Notes: generated by a model not told the origin, from the sequence alone. A stretch of DNA of 64,000 nt from Chloroflexaceae bacterium (GCA_025057155.1 JANWYD010000008.1:124001-188000); one strand, 5' to 3'. Positions 2,318-10,220 are shown, numbered from the stretch's first letter. Made by a program: numbers and translations.

Positions 2318-2827
2318 GTGGCAATCCGCAACCCCGGTCTGATCACCCTTATTGGTTACGTGTTGACCATCATCCTTGCTAATGTCGCCATCATTATCTT
2401 CGGCATCGTCCCGGTTGGTTTTGGGTTGATGGCCCCCGCCGGGGTGTACTTTGCCGGTCTGGTCTTCTCGCTGCGCGACGCGCTCCACGAGACGCTTGGG
2501 CGGCGCTGGGTGGTGGGGGCGATTCTGCTGGGCGCGGCAATCTCCGCGGCGCTAAGCCCCCAACTGGCCCTGGCCAGCGGCCTGGCCTTTCTGTTCAGCG
2601 AACTGGCTGACTTCGTGGTCTACTCGCCATTGCGCGAGCATAACCGCCTGGGGGCCGTTGCGGCCTCGAATACGGTTGGCGTGGTGGTAGACAGCGCGCT
2701 CTTCCTGTGGCTGGCGTTTGGCTCATTGCAGTTCCTGGCCGGCCAGATCGTCGGCAAGCTGTGGATGACCGCGTTCACGGTGATGATCATGCTCGCCTGG
2801 CGCCGCCTGGCAACCCGTCCGGCGTGA
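2318..2827 (+). CDS. VUT/YhhQ-family membrane protein, probable queuosine-precursor transporter
   Basis: A 169-residue membrane protein that is mostly hydrophobic, with about five to six transmembrane segments. The SLRDALHETLGRRW motif near residue 51 and the FSELADFVVYSPLRE motif near residue 95 are hallmarks of the VUT family. YhhQ of this family imports preQ0/preQ1, the 7-deazaguanine precursors of queuosine. The start is GTG at 2318 with GGGAG about eight bases upstream. It is the first gene of a plus-strand run whose last member is a transglycosylase relative, so the transporter may feed 7-deazaguanine to that system, although ordinary tRNA-queuosine salvage is equally possible. No preQ1 riboswitch was recognised in the leader. 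Confidence 0.85.
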   Translation: MAIRNPGLITLIGYVLTIILANVAIIIFGIVPVGFGLMAPAGVYFAGLVFSLRDALHETLGRRWVVGAILLGAAISAALSPQLALASGLAFLFSELADFVVYSPLREHNRLGAVAASNTVGVVVDSALFLWLAFGSLQFLAGQIVGKLWMTAFTVMIMLAWRRLATRPA

Positions 2828-2890
2828 GGAGAAGATTGAGAGGAGAGTCACGCCGCGAGCAGCGCCCTCTAGCGAATACGACAATCCGCG

Positions 2891-3628
2891 ATGGCTCAAC
2901 CCGATGCATTCCTACTGCTCGCCTGCTCGCAACGCAAGCGCGCCGACCCTGATCCGCTTCCGGCGCTGGATCGTTATGATGGTCCGCAGTTTCGGCTTGT
3001 GCGGAACTATCTCCGCGCTCATCCCGCCGCGTGGTCGAGCCTGGAGATTGCCATTCTTTCGGCGCGCTTCGGCCTCCTCTCCGCCTCCGAGCGCATTTCC
3101 GCCTACGAACAGCGGATGACCCCGGCGCGGGCGTTGCAGCTCCGCCCGGAGGTAATGGCCGCGCTGCGGCAGTATGTTCAGCGCGCCAGCTACCGGCGCT
3201 GCTGCGTCGCCATCGGTCGCGACTATGCGCCGGCCGTTGAAGGGCTTGAAACCATTCTGCCGGATAATTGTACCATTACCCGCCTCCAGGGTTCCCCTGG
3301 CGAACGGCTCGCCAGCCTTTTCGACTGGTTGTACGGCAACCAGGCCCGACCAGGCCGGCGGCGGCCCCTTCCTTCAGGGTGCGCCCATCTATGTGGAATT
3401 GAGATTTGCCTCGAACCCGAAGCGGTGCTCGCATGCGGCTTGAACGCCCTGCGTGCTCAGCAGACGCCGCCTCCCCAGCCGAAAGCCTGGTACGTGGAGC
3501 TTGACGGGCACAGGGTTGGCCCCAAATGGCTGGTCAGCCAGCTCGCCGGCCTGCCGGTCAGCGCCTTCAGTACGACGGACGCCCTGCGAGTGCTCGCCGC
3601 GCTAGGGGTGGAGGTGCAACGCCTATGA
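2891..3628 (+). CDS. DUF6884-like protein with C-terminal restriction-associated (ScoMcrA-head-like) domain
   Basis: 245 residues. The N-terminal part (about 1-150) has LLACSQRK at 9-16, a YDGPQFRLVRNYL segment, ILSARFGLL near 55-63 and YEQRM, the pattern I associate with DUF6884. The C-S-x-x-K motif recalls the preQ0-binding signature of archaeosine synthase ArcS (PCSxxK); this is an inference. The C-terminal part (about 199-244: WYVELDGHRVGPKWLVSQ, then FSTTDALRVLAALGVEV) resembles a small domain found at the ends of McrA-type restriction proteins. The stop overlaps the NurA start as ATGA, indicating translational coupling. A plausible role is processing or recognition of a 7-deazaguanine base in DNA, but the molecular function is not established from sequence alone. 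Confidence 0.7.
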   Translation: MAQPDAFLLLACSQRKRADPDPLPALDRYDGPQFRLVRNYLRAHPAAWSSLEIAILSARFGLLSASERISAYEQRMTPARALQLRPEVMAALRQYVQRASYRRCCVAIGRDYAPAVEGLETILPDNCTITRLQGSPGERLASLFDWLYGNQARPGRRRPLPSGCAHLCGIEICLEPEAVLACGLNALRAQQTPPPQPKAWYVELDGHRVGPKWLVSQLAGLPVSAFSTTDALRVLAALGVEVQRL

Positions 3629-5121
3629 ACGATACGCCGCTGTCCGACCGATGGTTCACCGAGGCCGGGGTGCAGGAGGACCTGCAACGTCAACCGCACC
3701 TCTTCGCGCGGCTGGCGGAGAATGCCCTGACCGTCGCTGAAAGCCTGCGCGGAAACTACTTCAAGAATACAGCCAGGTTCATCGCCGCCCTGCGCCGGGC
3801 GATTGCCGAAACCCGGGCAGGACGCCGCCCTGAGCCGGTGCTGGAGGTGTATCCGGTACCCGCAACTTCATGGGCCGATGTACGGGGAGAGGTGGTTACC
3901 TTCATTGACGGTGGGGTCGGGCAGGTGCAACTGGCCAGCCGGGTGCCTATCCTGCTGCGGGTCGGCTCCTACCGGGTGCGCACCGGGGAACGTCAGTTAA
4001 GCGAACGCGAGCAGTTCGGCTACTATCCCGTCATTCTGGGCGATCTTGAAGGCGGGAGCAAGGAGCGGAAAGACTTCGTTGATATTGTGCGCATCACCGC
4101 CGAGTTGCTGGCGGGACTGTCGGCCCTGGAACGCACACCCGACCTGCGCGTGCTGATGTTCCACGGCCCGCTGACCTACCTGGTTGGCAGTTATGCCGGG
4201 CATACGCCGTTTACCGAGCGGGATATCGATCTCTTTTTGCACCAGTACGCGCCGGACGCGCCGGGCGCACACCGGTTGAAAGAGATGTTTTTGCAGCAGG
4301 CCCATGTTGATGTCTACCCGGGGATGACCAGGCGCCCGGACGAATGGGCGCGGCAGCGGGTCTTTGAGCCGTTAGCGTTCATGGCCTTTCTGCTGCGGCA
4401 ACTCCGCGACGCGGCCCGGCGGCGCCCGCAGCCGGTCTATATCGTCGGCGTCGTTGAGCGGGGCGCCCTGCGCGATTTCAGTGAAACCGTTTTGCTAAAG
4501 CGCGTGTTTCGCGGCCTGCGCGAAAAGGGCAACGGTGATTACTTCAACAGGCTCTATGGCAGAACCGATCTGTCAACACCGAAAGCCCTCCTTGACCGCT
4601 TAGGCTATACTGATGCGCTGCTACTGGCGATGCTGCTGGAGCCGGGAGAGTACGCTGAGAGCTGGGTCATTCACAAGTTTGAGGGCCTGAGACGGGGCGA
4701 AGTCGGCCTGCCCGGAGAGGCGGGTGAGGAGATCGTCAACTTTGAGGTCCTTAAACCCCCTGCTCCATCTGGCTTCCCGCCGATCCGCGGCTGTTATCTG
4801 CACGTTGCGGAGATTGCCGATCCGCTGCGGATTGAGGTGTTCGACGAACTTGCCACCCCCGCGTACCTGGAAGAGGTCGTCCGCCGCGTGTATCTGTACG
4901 CGCGGCTGTTACCTGGATACGGTTTTCCGGTTGGTCTGGACATCGCCGACAAATATGCCCACATCCCGGCATGGTTGACCGACGCCTACGGCAAACTGAT
5001 CCGCTACCATCTGGGGGTGAGCCTGCAACAGGGGGAGATCAGCGACGCCGAGATGCGGCGGGTGCTGGTGCAGGCCATTTATATGACCCATCGGGACTGG
5101 CTCTTTCGTCCGGAACCCTGA
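3625..5121 (+). CDS. nurA: NurA-domain nuclease
   Basis: 498 residues, starting at the ATG that overlaps the previous stop. NurA is the 5'-3' nuclease partner of the HerA translocase in archaeal end resection, and HerA-NurA pairs also occur in phage defence. Visible NurA features are VTFIDGGVG (acidic residue D95), MFHGPLTYL at 178-186, YIVGVVERGALRDF near 270-290 and the C-terminal LDIADKYAHIPAWL, which matches the late Tyr/His motif. In most NurA proteins the second motif reads DGxL; here it is HGPL (H180), so one metal-binding Asp appears to be replaced. The HerA gene follows after 128 bases containing a heptamer repeat tract. Family confidence is good; whether it is active as a nuclease is uncertain. 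Confidence 0.82.
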   Translation: MNDTPLSDRWFTEAGVQEDLQRQPHLFARLAENALTVAESLRGNYFKNTARFIAALRRAIAETRAGRRPEPVLEVYPVPATSWADVRGEVVTFIDGGVGQVQLASRVPILLRVGSYRVRTGERQLSEREQFGYYPVILGDLEGGSKERKDFVDIVRITAELLAGLSALERTPDLRVLMFHGPLTYLVGSYAGHTPFTERDIDLFLHQYAPDAPGAHRLKEMFLQQAHVDVYPGMTRRPDEWARQRVFEPLAFMAFLLRQLRDAARRRPQPVYIVGVVERGALRDFSETVLLKRVFRGLREKGNGDYFNRLYGRTDLSTPKALLDRLGYTDALLLAMLLEPGEYAESWVIHKFEGLRRGEVGLPGEAGEEIVNFEVLKPPAPSGFPPIRGCYLHVAEIADPLRIEVFDELATPAYLEEVVRRVYLYARLLPGYGFPVGLDIADKYAHIPAWLTDAYGKLIRYHLGVSLQQGEISDAEMRRVLVQAIYMTHRDWLFRPEP

Positions 5122-5123
5122 TG

Positions 5124-5166
5124 GGATTTTGGATTTTGGATTTGGGATTTTGGATTTGGGATTGCG
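5124..5166. repeat. GGATTTT heptamer tract
   Basis: Several imperfect heptamers of GGATTTT (TTTTGGATTTTGGATTTGGG and onward) just after the nurA stop. The same heptamer family recurs at seven other gene junctions in the window. It may be a slippage-prone spacer; no function is evident. Confidence 0.9.
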
Positions 5167-5249
5167 GATTGGGATCGGCGTAGTCGAATGTGGCCACCGT
5201 CGCGCTGAGGCTCGAACGGGCCGTCTGGAACCGTGTAGGGAGTTGAGCT

Positions 5250-7130
5250 ATGACAACTTCACGATCCCGTCAGGCGCTCCAACCCTCTCCTGATCTGGCC
5301 GCGCCACCGGCGCCACCGGAGTATGTGGGCACTATCGTCGGCGAGAGCACCAGCCGCGAGTTTCGGCTGGCGATCGCCCAGGAAGCCGTGCGGGAACAGG
5401 ATCTGATCGCCGTTGACGCTGAACTGCGTCCGAGCAGTAGCGAGGGTCCGGCCCGGCCCATCCGTGTATGGGCCAAGGTACAGCGCATCGAGCGCATCAA
5501 TCCGCTCTTCCCGCGGGAAGCCGGCCACGAACTGGCCGCCACGCGCACGAACCCCTTTGATACGGTCCTGTCATTGAGCCGCGAGATGGTGACCGCGGTG
5601 TGCCAGGTGTTAGGCGTGGAACCACGCGAGGCCAGCGCGCGCGGCAAACTCGACCAGTTGCGCTACCCCCCGCAACCGGCCAGCAGCGCCTACCGTCCGA
5701 GCACCGAGGATATGGCGCGCGTGGTGCTCGGTGAACTGGCCCAACGCGCCAATCGCGCCCTCGACATCGCCACCCTGTCGAATCGCCCCGAAGTGTCGGT
5801 CAGCGTTGATGGGCACGCGATCGTGACCCGTCACCTGGCGATCCTGGCCATGACCGGCGCCGGCAAGAGCTGGACCGCGCGGCGCATCATCGAACAGCTC
5901 GCGGCAAAGAACTACCCGATTGTGATTTTTGATCCTCATGGGGATTACACGGGCCTGGCCGATGTTCCGACGCTCGCACCGCGTGTGCGTCGCTACTGCG
6001 CGCAATTTCCATTGTTTGATGAAGACGCCGATGCGGTGGCAAGAATTGTAAACGCTTTAGGATACGAACTCACAGATGCAATGAAAGAGCGATTTGCAGC
6101 TTTATTCAATGCAGCTATCCGGTTTGCGAACGCCGATGAAGAGGAACTGAAAGAAAGGGTGCAATGGCTTGCTGAAAGGTTGGGGAAAGACGATCTGCGC
6201 ACCCATGGCGTCAAGCGTGACATGTGGCTGATCGCCAATCTTGCCGAAGCCGGCGAGTTGACGTTGCGCGCGAATGATGATGACGGCAAGAACTTGCTGG
6301 TCGAGTGGGGATGGGAAGGCTTCGGCAACTATTCAAAACGCGACGCTAACACATTAGAGGGTATCAAGAAGCGCGCCTATAAGGCGGCAAGAGTTTTACA
6401 GAACATGGAACAGATCAATCGGAAGATTGCCCGCAGTACGAACCCGCTTCCGACAGATCGCAAGGAGCTTGTACGCTATGGAGGCATAAGCATTATCGCG
6501 CTTGCCGGCTACACCAGCGACTTCCAGGCCACCATCTACAGCCTGATTGCGAATGATCTGTTCCAGGCGCGGGTGCAAGAAGAACTGAAACTGCCAGTGC
6601 TGCTGGTGCTGGAAGAGGCGCACAATTTCGCGCCGGGGCGCGCCAACACCGCCGCGGAGGAGCGTTCGATTGCCATCACCAAGCAGATCGCCCAGGAAGG
6701 GCGGAAGTTCGGCATTGGCCTGGTGATGATCAGCCAGCGGCCCTCGCGTCTCGATGAAACCACTCTGTCGCAGTGCAACTCCTACATCATCATGCGCCTG
6801 GTAAACCCGGCTGACCAGAACTTCGTGCGCAAGGTGATCGAGAGTCTGGGCGAAGACGATGCCCGTCTGCTGCCGGATCTCGACGTTGGTGAGGCGTTGC
6901 TGTCGGGCCAGTTGATCAACTTCCCGGTGCTGGTGCGGATCAAACCGCCAGAGTCCCAGGGCGAACGGGAAGAAGAAGATGCATTCGAGGCCCTCGAAGC
7001 AGCCCATCGCCAGCAGCAACAGGCGAAGCGGCAGCCGGCTGATCGCGACGGAAAAACCCTCGAAAATACGCCCTCGCGACCAGGGAGCGGGGGAACATCC
7101 TCGTGGAAGGGAACGGCTAATGAAGATTAA
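5250..7130 (+). CDS. herA: HerA-like hexameric DNA translocase ATPase
   Basis: 626 residues. The N-terminal HAS-barrel-like region (about 24-130) precedes a Walker A motif MTGAGKSW (201-208), Walker B LLVLEEAHNF (451-460, E455/E456 and H458) and the arginine-finger-like SQRPSRLDETTLSQC (495-509). This order and the EEAH Walker B are typical of HerA/DUF87. HerA proteins pump double-stranded DNA and activate a partner nuclease; the adjacent NurA gene fits. The C-terminal 50 residues are charged and glutamine-rich with no recognisable fold. Two internal stretches (about 6005-6190 and 6330-6440) are clearly more AT-rich than the surroundings and encode the insert between the Walker motifs (about residues 252-400), which suggests recombination or a recently acquired segment. 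Confidence 0.9.
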   Translation: MTTSRSRQALQPSPDLAAPPAPPEYVGTIVGESTSREFRLAIAQEAVREQDLIAVDAELRPSSSEGPARPIRVWAKVQRIERINPLFPREAGHELAATRTNPFDTVLSLSREMVTAVCQVLGVEPREASARGKLDQLRYPPQPASSAYRPSTEDMARVVLGELAQRANRALDIATLSNRPEVSVSVDGHAIVTRHLAILAMTGAGKSWTARRIIEQLAAKNYPIVIFDPHGDYTGLADVPTLAPRVRRYCAQFPLFDEDADAVARIVNALGYELTDAMKERFAALFNAAIRFANADEEELKERVQWLAERLGKDDLRTHGVKRDMWLIANLAEAGELTLRANDDDGKNLLVEWGWEGFGNYSKRDANTLEGIKKRAYKAARVLQNMEQINRKIARSTNPLPTDRKELVRYGGISIIALAGYTSDFQATIYSLIANDLFQARVQEELKLPVLLVLEEAHNFAPGRANTAAEERSIAITKQIAQEGRKFGIGLVMISQRPSRLDETTLSQCNSYIIMRLVNPADQNFVRKVIESLGEDDARLLPDLDVGEALLSGQLINFPVLVRIKPPESQGEREEEDAFEALEAAHRQQQQAKRQPADRDGKTLENTPSRPGSGGTSSWKGTANED

Positions 7131-7149
7131 GAATATAAACCGGTATTCG

Positions 7150-7205
7150 CCCGGCAGCCCGGCGGCTGAAGCCGCGGGCTACCGATGCGAAGCCCGCCTG
7201 CGCGG
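7150..7205. repeat. REP-like hairpin (GCCCGGCGGCTGAAGCCGCGGGC and flank)
   Basis: Two adjacent short hairpins after herA: GCCCGGCGGCT/AGCCGCGGGC with a very short loop, then GCCCGC/GCGGGC around CTGC. This is the kind of repetitive extragenic palindrome widely scattered in GC-rich genomes. It could act as a weak terminator for the herA transcript, but there is no T-tract. Confidence 0.6.
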
Positions 7206-7288
7206 GCGATGCCGGATTTAATTCTTAATTTCACAAGTCATTACAACGCGGATTTCAAACGATATTATTCCCTACAAGGAACAATACG

Positions 7289-7363
7289 TAATGACGACTT
7301 TCGTCATCCCGCCATCATAAGCAAAAAAGCCGCATAATGACGACTTTCGTCGTCCGGCCATCA
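7289..7363. promoter_or_regulatory. Two 29-base direct repeats, each with a GACGA-CTT-TCGTC dyad (candidate operators)
   Basis: Copy one at 7289-7317 and copy two at 7335-7363 differ at only two positions and are spaced 46 bases apart. Each carries an inverted repeat GACGA-3-TCGTC followed by a shared CC-rich tail ending GCCATCA. Paired dyads on one side of a gene are typical of repressor binding sites; here they lie 130-200 bases upstream of the transglycosylase-like gene. No regulator gene is adjacent. They could also be two remaining units of a decayed repeat array. Confidence 0.6.
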
Positions 7364-7490
7364 CCAGGCAACATCCGTATGAGGCGCGTGAGTCAACCAG
7401 GGTTAACGCAGAAAACGCCCTTTGCGCATGAAAAACTCTACGCCTGAGAGCGAAACGCGCAGATTTCACGGCGGTCGCGGAGCAACAGAG

Positions 7491-8522
7491 GTGAATATCG
7501 TCGCCGGTCTGAGCCTGAAGAATCTGAAACCGCGCGTCTGGGACCCCGCCTCGCCGTACTACCTTCCCGACCTGACGGCGGTCATGGTGTCATATGCCGA
7601 TTTTCATCGTGCGCCCCGGCAGCGCCGCGCGGCAATGGAGCAAACGCTGCGCAGCTACCTGGGAGCGCCTGCGCACGTGCGGATCTATCTGGATAATGGG
7701 GCCTTTTACTTTCTTGGCCGCGATGGCGGTATTCCCCTCCACGAATACCAGGAGTTTGTGCAGGTCGCCCAACCTGACTGGTATCCGATCCCCCAGGATT
7801 TTATTCCGACGCCGCACATGGACGACGAAGCGCAACTGCGGTGTCTTTGCCGCACGATGGAGATGAATCGCGCGTTCGAGCACAATGGGTTTGTGCCCGT
7901 CATGCACATCAGTCGGCAACTTCCCAGATATCTGGAGGAGTTCACCAGGAGCACGAAGCTGACCCAGAAGGAGCGCGTCGCCCTGGGAGGCATGGTGCCC
8001 AACCTGTTGCGCGCGCCCCGCGCCATGCCCTACGCCGAAATCTTGAGAGGTCTGGATCAGGTGCGTCGGACACTGGTCAACAAAGAGTTGCACGCCTTTG
8101 GACTTGGCGGAACGGCCACGCTGCACCTGGCGGCCCTCTTCAGCATCGACTCGCTCGACTCGTCGGGCTGGCGCAATCGCGCGGCGCGGGGCATTGTCCA
8201 GCTACCAGGACGGGGTGATCGGGTGGTAGCGAACATGGGCAGTTGGCGCGGGAGGGAACCGGACGCAGCCGAGTGGTCCATGCTGGCCGCGTGCCCCTGT
8301 CCGGCGTGCCGGCGGTTCGGCGTCGCCGGGCTGACCGCGAGCGGCATAGAAGGCTTCTGCAACCGCGCCACGCACAACCTCTGGGTCTTGCTGCGAGAAG
8401 CGCGGGATATCGCAGCGCACCTGGCAGCGAAGACCTATCGCGACTGGTACTCCTGTCATGTCGAGAACGCGATTTACCGATCCCTGGTGCGCGACGCCCT
8501 GACGTTGCGGGCGGATCAGTGA
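7491..8522 (+). CDS. DpdA-like tRNA-guanine transglycosylase (TGT) family protein
   Basis: TGT enzymes exchange guanine for a 7-deazaguanine; DpdA members do this in DNA. Counting from GTG 7491 (343 residues), YLDNGAF at 66-72 matches the DSGGFQ substrate motif with acid/base D68. FGLGG at 203-207 followed by [10 protein letters not shown] matches the region of the nucleophile, likely D223. CPCPAC at 268-273 plus H295 matches the C-x-C-x2-C...H zinc site. An upstream ATG at 7422 is in frame but its first codons lie in MITE-like repeat debris (AAAACTCTACGCCTGAG), whereas the GTG has GGAG some ten bases before it. The neighbours (transporter, DUF6884-like, NurA, HerA) favour DNA rather than tRNA as the target, but that is inference; the overall sequence is far from canonical bacterial Tgt. 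Confidence 0.78.
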
Positions 8523-8539: not shown

Positions 8540-9190
8540 ATGCGAACCCTCAGCTACCTGTTCAACAACAATCGGAAGTGGGCCGCCGCGATTCTCGAGC
8601 GCGATCCGGGATTCTTCGAGAAACTCTCGCGCCAGCAGGCCCCCAGGTATGTGTGGATTGGCTGCTCTGACAGCCGTGTTCCGGCCAACGATATCGTCGG
8701 CCTGCTGCCAGGGGAACTCTTCGTTCACCGGAACGTGGCCAATCAGGTCATCCACACCGATCTGAACTGCCTGGCGGTGCTCCAGTACGCAGTGGAAGTG
8801 CTGCGGGTCGAGCATGTGATCGTCTGCGGGCACTACGGCTGTGGTGGAGTCAAGGCTGCTATGCTCAATACACACCTGGGCCTGATTGACAACTGGCTCC
8901 GGCACATCCAGGACGTGATGCATAAGCACGCCGCGCTGCTGGAGGGTCTGCCTGATGACGAGCAGCGCCTCGACCGGCTCTGCGAGTTGAACGTGATCGA
9001 GCAGGTGGTCCACGTTGCGCACACGACGGTGGTGCAGAGCGCCTGGGAGCGCGGGCAGGATCTGGAGATCCACGGCTGGATCTACCGCATCTCCGATGGC
9101 CTGCTGCACGACCTGCAAGTGTACGCCAGGAGCGAGGCGGAACTCCAGGAGCATTACCAGCGCGCCTGCGCGCGCTATCGCCAGCAGTAA
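8540..9190 (+). CDS. can: Beta-class carbonic anhydrase
   Basis: Interconverts CO2 and bicarbonate in the cytoplasm. The 216 residues show the complete beta-class zinc site: C42-x-D44-x-R46 (CSDSR) and H98-x2-C101 (CGHYGC), with [11 protein letters not shown] and the C-terminal [13 protein letters not shown] segment. Length is standard for the plant/bacterial clade. The ATG at 8540 has GAAGGAG upstream and lies only 17 bases after the transglycosylase-like gene, so the two may be co-transcribed despite no obvious functional link. Bicarbonate supply fits a bacterium related to the CO2-fixing phototrophs of this order. A strong hairpin follows the stop. Confidence 0.95.
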
Positions 9191-9263: not shown

Positions 9264-10220
9264 TCAATCCGTAAACATTCCGCTCACCGACTCGCGAGTG
9301 TGGATGCGCCGGATGGCTTCGGCGAAGAGGGGCGCCACCGATACAACTTCGATCTTCGGTGAGAAGGTCACCGGCTGGGTCTCAATCGAGTCGGTAATGA
9401 AGAGCCGTTCGAGAGGACTGGCGTCAATACGCTCCACCGAGCCGGGCGTCAGCACGCCGTGGGTGACCATGGCGTAAACCTTGCGCGCGCCGCGCTCGAC
9501 CAGGCGTTTAGCTACCTCGGCCAGCGTTCCGCCGGAGATGGTGAAGTCGTCTACGATCAACGCGGTTTTGCCGGCCACATCGCCGATGATCTCCAGCACC
9601 TCGGCGTGTTCGTCGTGCCCCGCACGCTCCTTGTTGGCGATGGCCAGCGAGGTGCCGAGCGCATTGGCGTAGCGGCGCGCCGCCTTCACAAAGCCGGCGT
9701 CGGGCGAGACCACTACCAGATTGGGGAGGTGCAACTCGCGGATGCGTTCGACCAGCACGGGCATGGCGTACAGGTTGTCCACCGGCACATGGAAGAAGCC
9801 CTGGATCTGGGGCGCGTGCAGGTCCATCGTCACCACCCGGTCGCAGCCGGCTACTTCGATGCAGTCGGCGCAGACGCGGGCGCGGATGGAGACGCGCGGT
9901 TCGTCTTTCTTGTCGCCCTTGGCGTAGCTGAAGTAGGGAATAACCGCGGTGACCGAGGCGGCGCTGGCCCGGTTGAGGGCGTCAATCCAGAAGAGCAGTT
10001 CCATGAAGCTGTCGTTGGTGGGGAAGACCGTGCTCTGCACGACGTAGGCTTCGCGACCGCGGACGTTTTCGAGCACGCGCACGAAGGTGTTGCCTTCGGA
10101 GAAAGTGATCACTTCGCCTTTGCCCGGTGTGATCCCTAGACGGTCGCAGATCCTGGCAGTCAGGCGGCGGCTGCTGCTCCCTGCAAAAACGACCATCTCC
10201 CCATCAGTTACTGCATTCAT
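9264..10220 (-). CDS. prs: Ribose-phosphate pyrophosphokinase (PRPP synthetase)
   Basis: Makes phosphoribosyl pyrophosphate from ribose 5-phosphate and ATP for purine, pyrimidine, histidine and NAD synthesis. The 318 residues match the standard length. The PRPP synthetase signature VVTMDLHAPQIQGFF and the PRPP-binding loop TALIVDDFTISGGT are intact, as is the N-terminal SEGNTFVRVLENVRG region and PYFSYAKGDKKDEPR. Start ATG at 10218-10220. The gene is convergent with can. Confidence 0.96.
   Translation of the reverse strand: MNAVTDGEMVVFAGSSSRRLTARICDRLGITPGKGEVITFSEGNTFVRVLENVRGREAYVVQSTVFPTNDSFMELLFWIDALNRASAASVTAVIPYFSYAKGDKKDEPRVSIRARVCADCIEVAGCDRVVTMDLHAPQIQGFFHVPVDNLYAMPVLVERIRELHLPNLVVVSPDAGFVKAARRYANALGTSLAIANKERAGHDEHAEVLEIIGDVAGKTALIVDDFTISGGTLAEVAKRLVERGARKVYAMVTHGVLTPGSVERIDASPLERLFITDSIETQPVTFSPKIEVVSVAPLFAEAIRRIHTRESVSGMFTD

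Follow-up and report, generated by a model that had tools for sequence, protein, structure and literature searches.

A mobile DUF6884-NurA-HerA-transglycosylase module of Chloroflexaceae as a candidate Dpd-like restriction system

Gene content of the locus

The window analysed here is a stretch of 64,000 nucleotides (G000:C8:124001-188000) from a 5.1-Mb Chloroflexaceae genome. Positions 2318-8522 hold five plus-strand genes, all with open frames and in the order given by an earlier note made from the sequence alone. Family scans identified them as a Vut_1 transporter, a DUF6884 protein, NurA, HerA and a transglycosylase (TGT); the first four exceed their Pfam cut-offs and the TGT lies just below its own. 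The features of the region are:

2318..2827, plus strand: queuosine-precursor or preQ0-type transporter of the Vut_1 family (169 aa), supply gene
2891..3628, plus strand: DUF6884 protein (Pfam DUF6884; YaaA/DpdC superfamily) ending in a tail of about 45 residues
3625..5121, plus strand: NurA-family nuclease (Pfam NurA), accessory paralogue
5250..7130, plus strand: HerA hexameric DNA translocase (626 aa), Walker A GAGKS, Walker B LLVLEEAH
7285..7365, no strand assigned: two copies of ATGACGACTTTCGTC(A/G)TCC(C/G)GCCATCA, 46 bp apart, between herA and the TGT gene
7491..8522, plus strand: diverged TGT (protein P0005), probable GTG start at 7491, frame open from 7422
8540..9190, plus strand: carbonic anhydrase, inside the inserted segment

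The transporter scores 34.7 bits against Pfam Vut_1 (cut-off 27.2) and 36 bits against TIGR00697, below the cut-off of the latter model. The second gene product, noticed earlier for its C-S-x-x-K motif and its tail, reaches 38.3 bits against Pfam DUF6884 (cut-off 30) and carries both motifs by which this family is described as a YaaA relative (PMC11701544), namely CxxxK (CSQRK) and LSAxxG (LSARFG). Its match to DpdC is weak (17.4 bits in PADLOC), and so is its profile match to the gene upstream of Enterobacter dpdA; dpdC itself matches DUF6884 (PMC11888242). Judged from these matches, the protein is a candidate base-tailoring enzyme in the role of DpdC.

The proposed HerA-NurA pair is borne out by both families exceeding their Pfam cut-offs. 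HerA scores 92.6 bits with PF01935, and its top PADLOC HerA match is 209 bits; the central domain and both Walker motifs are present, and the PDB matches are HerA relatives. NurA scores 36.5 bits (cut-off 21). A separate housekeeping NurA of 121 bits is encoded on contig C29 of the same genome and is found in nearly all of 61 relatives, while the module NurA is confined to TGT carriers and appears to be a second, diverged copy. In every module copy the Asp of the DGxL motif is replaced by His180 (MFHGPL where the housekeeping protein has FLDGAL), and the first Asp (FIDGG) is kept; because of this replacement in all copies, nuclease activity of the module NurA is not assured. No match to it was obtained among the viral contigs scanned, and no plasmid homologue was found for protein P0003; the same viral scan for DUF6884 gave three distant relatives. 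HerA-NurA has long been described as end-resection machinery. A study of the T. kodakarensis pair argues that it is ill-suited to end resection and may act against viruses (PMC12977600).

The ATG of nurA overlaps the DUF6884 stop at 3625-3628, which agrees with the ATGA coupling claimed before. No such overlap joins herA to the TGT gene in the window, where the repeat pair at 7285-7365 lies between them. The repeat contains the inverted repeat TGACGA-CTT-TCGTCA, its two copies are the sole exact matches in the genome, and its core is absent from the module copy of the congener G002; the pair is possibly an operator.

The transglycosylase

The GTG at 7491 is taken as the probable start of the TGT, rather than 7422, because the relatives begin MLIVAGxSLK. 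The protein scores 21.1 bits against PF01702 (cut-off 26.3), and its orthologue on an Aulosira plasmid, 56% identical, scores 34.7 bits, above the cut-off. Against the DpdA equivalog of NCBIfam it reaches 20.7 bits, far under the cut-off of 200; the DpdA match in PADLOC is also weak, and phrog_887 is matched at 2e-9. The DxGxF motif, nucleophile region and zinc site read by eye earlier are all retained in the alignment (DNGAF, the Asp in PIPQD, the SxDS nucleophile and CxCxxC...H), as are the catalytic residues D91 and D246 in P0005 numbering. The base-pocket loop is GG[M/I]VP (GGMVP in P0005), as in arcTGT, which is reported to use preQ0, and in Enterobacter DpdA; housekeeping Tgts are marked by a GG-L/S-type pocket motif, and the genome's own Tgt has GGSLG. 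Whether the GxxQG/H motif carries His or Gln was rejected as a DpdA marker, since His is present there in the Tgt of the genome too.

A first AlphaFold model, built from four near-identical sequences with the long N-terminus, had a pLDDT of 44 and was useless; a second (343 aa), with the corrected start and a viral relative added, reached 67, which is medium quality. TGT structures occupy all top 50 ranks when the second model is compared with the PDB. The model thus predicts a TGT fold and is silent on whether DNA or tRNA is the substrate. A profile of five TGT orthologues matched only arcTGT 1iq8 (1.3e-5) and the DNA-guanine transglycosylase 7ui4 (0.025) in the PDB. It is closer to the archaeal tRNA enzyme than to DpdA, which counts against a Dpd-like function.

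In maximum-likelihood trees the module TGTs form a clade of their own (support 100), split with support 100 from the two further Tgts of the genome and placed outside the DpdA clade. Clustering with tRNA Tgts had been named in the earlier note as the outcome that would speak against its reading, and the trees show the opposite. The nearest neighbours are viral, with moderate to weak support, and these viral enzymes (phage 9g DpdA and the TGT-like proteins of STSV1/STSV2) differ from the module in being without HerA-NurA. The STSV1 protein comes first (support 82-86); phage 9g DpdA is next in one tree (72) and groups with BRC enzymes in the other (65), and its placement is weak because the two trees differ. 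Phage DpdA inserts preQ0 into DNA (PMC6884629).

The TGT could instead modify RNA, namely a tRNA, its place next to a HerA-NurA pair for DNA repair being due to chance or to a stress response. We consider this unlikely, although TGTs are classically tRNA enzymes, the profile best matches the archaeosine tRNA TGT, and the top structural matches are tRNA TGTs, albeit ones that dominate the PDB. The genome already has two strong TGTs elsewhere (a canonical one of 465 bits and a second of 324 bits with PF01702) as well as the housekeeping NurA, and the module enzymes, of 343-366 aa, lack the extended C-terminal portion of the 582-aa arcTGT. In addition, the NurA-TGT co-occurrence, mobility and effector swapping described below fit defence rather than tRNA metabolism.

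Recurrence in Chloroflexota

The check on co-occurrence that the earlier note had proposed turned out in its favour. DUF6884, NurA, HerA and TGT genes follow each other in the same order in the congeners G002 (79-94% identity) and G004 (59-83%), and again in G075, a member of another Chloroflexota class (L034), where NurA is 67%, HerA 69% and TGT 59% identical and the DUF6884 protein in first place belongs to a different subfamily (26% identity). In G003 the end of the TGT was found at a contig edge. In G004, 4 nt are shared by the DUF6884 and NurA genes and 7 nt by the HerA and TGT genes, and NurA is separated from HerA by 11 nt; the successive gaps in G075 measure 76, 19 and about 4 nt. Such short overlaps (4 and 7 nt) and gaps (11-19 nt) indicate a tight operon.

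Among 400 evenly drawn Chloroflexota genomes, the module NurA family and the TGT family were found together in five, and neither was found in any other. The probability of such a coincidence by chance is about 1e-11, or about 1e-7 with the genus counted once. The unit is rare (5/400 genomes, one of them a fossil), and DUF6884-NurA-HerA-TGT is a heritable four-gene unit.

Mobility and replacement

On either side of the segment in the window are a phosphofructokinase gene and a PRPP synthetase gene, which adjoin each other in G004, and homology to G004 stops at position 1759 of the window and resumes at 9273; the 7.5-kb module segment is therefore absent from this site in G004, whose own module copy lies on another contig in a different context. 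The module is a horizontally mobile, putatively defensive locus. In G000, G002 and G003 the insert includes the carbonic anhydrase gene, which is missing at the empty site of G004 and located elsewhere in G001; it is considered a passenger outside the system.

In G048 (Roseiflexaceae) the order is transporter, DUF6884, a NurA stub (the first 67 residues, 77%), an N4/N6 DNA methylase, an NgoMIV-family restriction enzyme (344 bits) and the end of a TGT (the last 73 residues, 51%). At this locus (L020:8219-12195, on G048:C50) the methylase and NgoMIV genes have been swapped in for the NurA-HerA-TGT core, with stubs at both ends. Judging by these remnants, one restriction system appears to have been overwritten by another, a classical R-M pair.

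A viral contig (L041) encodes a TGT of 56% identity that is preceded by 22 residues 73% identical to HerA 467-488. With this HerA scar in front of the viral TGT, the HerA-TGT junction must be old.

Exchange of the effector genes

On plasmid6 of Aulosira laxa NIES-50 (L035) the TGT (56%) is accompanied by a DUF6884 protein (43%) in which the C-terminal tail is conserved. The same plasmid encodes a weak HerA-like ATPase and Mre11-like and Rad50/LmuB-like proteins, and no recognisable NurA was found on it; the 352-aa product of the gene beside the HerA-like gene (P0012) was tried as a NurA-like protein, and profile comparison gave no match. On a Haladaptatus plasmid, a DUF6884 gene (33%) adjoins a TGT of 84 bits, with GHKL ATPase and helicase/PLD genes. 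The 'ATP-binding protein' beside this DUF6884-TGT pair was rejected as HerA, being the GHKL ATPase. In the Chloroflexaceae genomes G016 and G030 the tailed DUF6884 (35-37%) is found in a locus with a genuine DpdA (40-47% identity to NCBI-named DpdA), a TGT of 300 aa and an AAA ATPase of 939 aa. The pair of TGT and tailed DUF6884 is thus conserved while the effector arm is exchanged.

The Aulosira plasmid, with both members of the pair and no recognisable NurA, may also be read to mean that TGT and DUF6884 alone make up the system, which would modify DNA without restricting it, HerA-NurA being a hitchhiking repair or defence pair; similarly, the restriction operon is missing from some dpd islands (PMC11888242). 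However, the NurA and HerA genes are enclosed by those of DUF6884 and TGT, with translational overlaps, the module NurA family never occurs without the TGT in the 400 genomes, and the 22-residue scar marks the HerA-TGT junction as old. Hitchhiking is therefore given little credence here, and the four genes are treated as one unit.

Transporter and precursor supply

Homologues of the transporter (at least 74% identity) are sporadic among the relatives. Where the contigs continue, the transporter gene adjoins the DUF6884 gene or stands a few kb away; a DUF366 gene lies between the two in G004, G016, G030 and G033. In G016, QueC is directly upstream of the transporter-DUF6884 cassette, which itself precedes the locus with DpdA and the 300-aa TGT. 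No transporter was found with the module copy of G075, the contig of which ends near the DUF6884 gene. The transporter is linked to DUF6884 and not to the NurA-HerA-TGT core, in a cassette of transporter-(DUF366)-DUF6884. The joint recurrence of the genes in the earlier note is borne out, with the refinement that the core consists of four, and the transporter is part of the supply cassette.

DUF366 genes were located at L018:7835-8407, L021:18038-18640 (203 bits) and L048:12380-12952, and the gene has decayed to fragments in L049. Their positions suggest a role of DUF366 in deazaguanine use; a literature search on this family gave nothing useful.

No true QueC was found in G000, from which it is reasonable to infer that preQ0, or a base related to it, is imported. 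PTPS-family (QueD-like) proteins are present and QueC alone is missing, for which reason preQ0 synthesis is not claimed to be wholly absent. In Agrobacterium vitis a Vut-family gene stands beside dpdA-dpdB-queE-queD-queC, which is a precedent for a Vut-family supply gene with dpd.

The supply genes also bear on the possibility that the module acts in a type IV-like manner against phage DNA bearing 7-deazaguanine, with the TGT exchanging or removing the phage bases, HerA-NurA degrading the DNA and no self-mark being made. The transporter, and QueC in the sibling locus, are linked to the same DUF6884 family, which fits insertion of the base better than its removal, and on the viral contig the TGT stands without the other module genes, as self-protection of a phage would need. 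On the other hand, GrwAB restricts 7-deazaguanine phages (PMC12137116), base-exchanging TGTs could in principle run in reverse, and DUF6884 has been modelled as flipping a base (PMC11701544). Taken together, such an activity seems distinctly improbable.

Comparison with known systems

The Dpd systems (dpdA-dpdK; PMC11888242, PMC12839542) share with the module a TGT-family base exchanger, a DUF6884/YaaA partner, precursor supply by a Vut/YhhQ-type transporter or QueC, and genes for a DNA-acting ATPase and nuclease. In contrast to Dpd, the module TGT belongs to its own clade and is not DpdA proper, HerA-NurA is in place of the dpdD-K set (SNF2, DEAD, PLD), and there are four genes rather than up to eleven. 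None of the five genes encodes DpdB (DndB/DGQHR ATPase), which is reported to be dispensable in some clusters (PMC12839542). In some BREX-Related Capture (BRC) systems a HerA/FtsK translocase is likewise accompanied by a TGT, but BRC has PglZ, DUF6079, a STAND NTPase, DUF4007 and GNAT and is without a homologue of DpdC (PMC12839542). PglZ, DUF6079, STAND and DUF4007 are all absent from the five module genes, and the TGTs of two BRC-like Chloroflexaceae loci typed by eye (L023, L025) fall outside the module TGT clade.

In archaeal and thermophile HerA-NurA the translocase and nuclease are also encoded together, whereas the module pair is an accessory paralogue tied to modification genes, and one motif of its NurA has His instead of Asp. 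A HerA motor joined to an effector enzyme is also found in the HerA-SIR2 and HerA-DUF4297 anti-phage systems; in the module the effector is NurA, and putative DNA-modifying enzymes are added. The earlier note knew of no Dpd cluster built on HerA-NurA, and no description of HerA-NurA with a Dpd-type TGT and DUF6884 was found in the openly available papers searched, though HerA beside a TGT is already known from BRC (PMC12839542). The module is probably a new variety of 7-deazaguanine restriction systems that would work like Dpd and falls outside it by the DpdA equivalog and DpdB features.

Proposed mechanism

We favour, as rather likely, the view that the module is a compact mobile restriction-modification-like system of the Dpd kind, in which HerA-NurA is the restriction arm. 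This view is taken because of the conserved order, the NurA-TGT co-occurrence, the mobility of the unit, the core swap in G048, the Aulosira, Haladaptatus and G016 loci, and the retained catalytic residues, pocket loop and predicted fold of the TGT; published work speaks for the individual steps one by one. The host, apparently without QueC and hence unable to complete preQ0, would import a 7-deazaguanine precursor, possibly preQ0, through the Vut_1-type transporter. The TGT, as an analogue of DpdA, would then swap guanines in the host's own DNA for preQ0 by base exchange, and the DUF6884 protein, as an analogue of DpdC, would tailor the inserted base to its final form (for example from nitrile to amide) or help in site choice via its tail. 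DNA without the mark would be pumped by the HerA ring into NurA and degraded. Against such a Dpd-like function count the absence of DpdB (DGQHR), the Asp to His change in NurA, the unproven function of DUF6884, the rarity of the unit and the presence of PTPS. As to the joint deazaguanine modification and defence proposed in the earlier note, the split of the TGT from the Tgts and the conserved co-occurrence speak for it, and the joint function itself is still something that we infer.

More tentatively, and with somewhat less than even confidence, the module may represent a new Dpd-like subtype in which scavenged 7-deazaguanine serves as the self-mark, HerA-NurA spares marked DNA, and TGT with tailed DUF6884 is a portable marking unit for HerA-NurA, HerA-like/Mre11-Rad50 or helicase-PLD effectors. 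If so, HerA-NurA, the role of which is disputed between end resection and antiviral defence, would gain a defensive context with a self-mark. A minimal 7-deazaguanine restriction system of four genes could be transferred to a laboratory strain and tested whole, compared with dpd islands of up to eleven genes. Across Chloroflexota, Cyanobacteriota and perhaps haloarchaea, the marking pair would prove to be interchangeable from one effector set to another, and a function would be suggested for DUF6884, a family of unknown function.

Other loci with transglycosylases

In four Chloroflexales loci (L021:5014-11594, L022:4344-10797, L024 and L027) a DpdA (about 405 aa) is accompanied by a second, small TGT (about 300 aa) and an AAA ATPase of 939 aa; QueC, transporter, DUF366 and tailed DUF6884 join them in some cases. 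These loci are possibly a two-TGT variant of dpd. On the haloarchaeal plasmids L036, L037 and L038 a large DpdA-like protein is encoded together with a TGT of 344 aa and an ATP-binding protein of the BREX type; the neighbouring genes are queC/folE/queE/PTPS, PTPS alone or a queuosine-precursor transporter, with Csa3 nearby. On the viral contig mentioned above (L041:2063-7341; IMGVR_UViG_3300016466_000585), several repeated RAMP-like and CysH/PAPS-reductase-like genes are found directly upstream of the TGT gene, and with their families assigned by eye, they may be a CRISPR-like (type IV/III) cluster.
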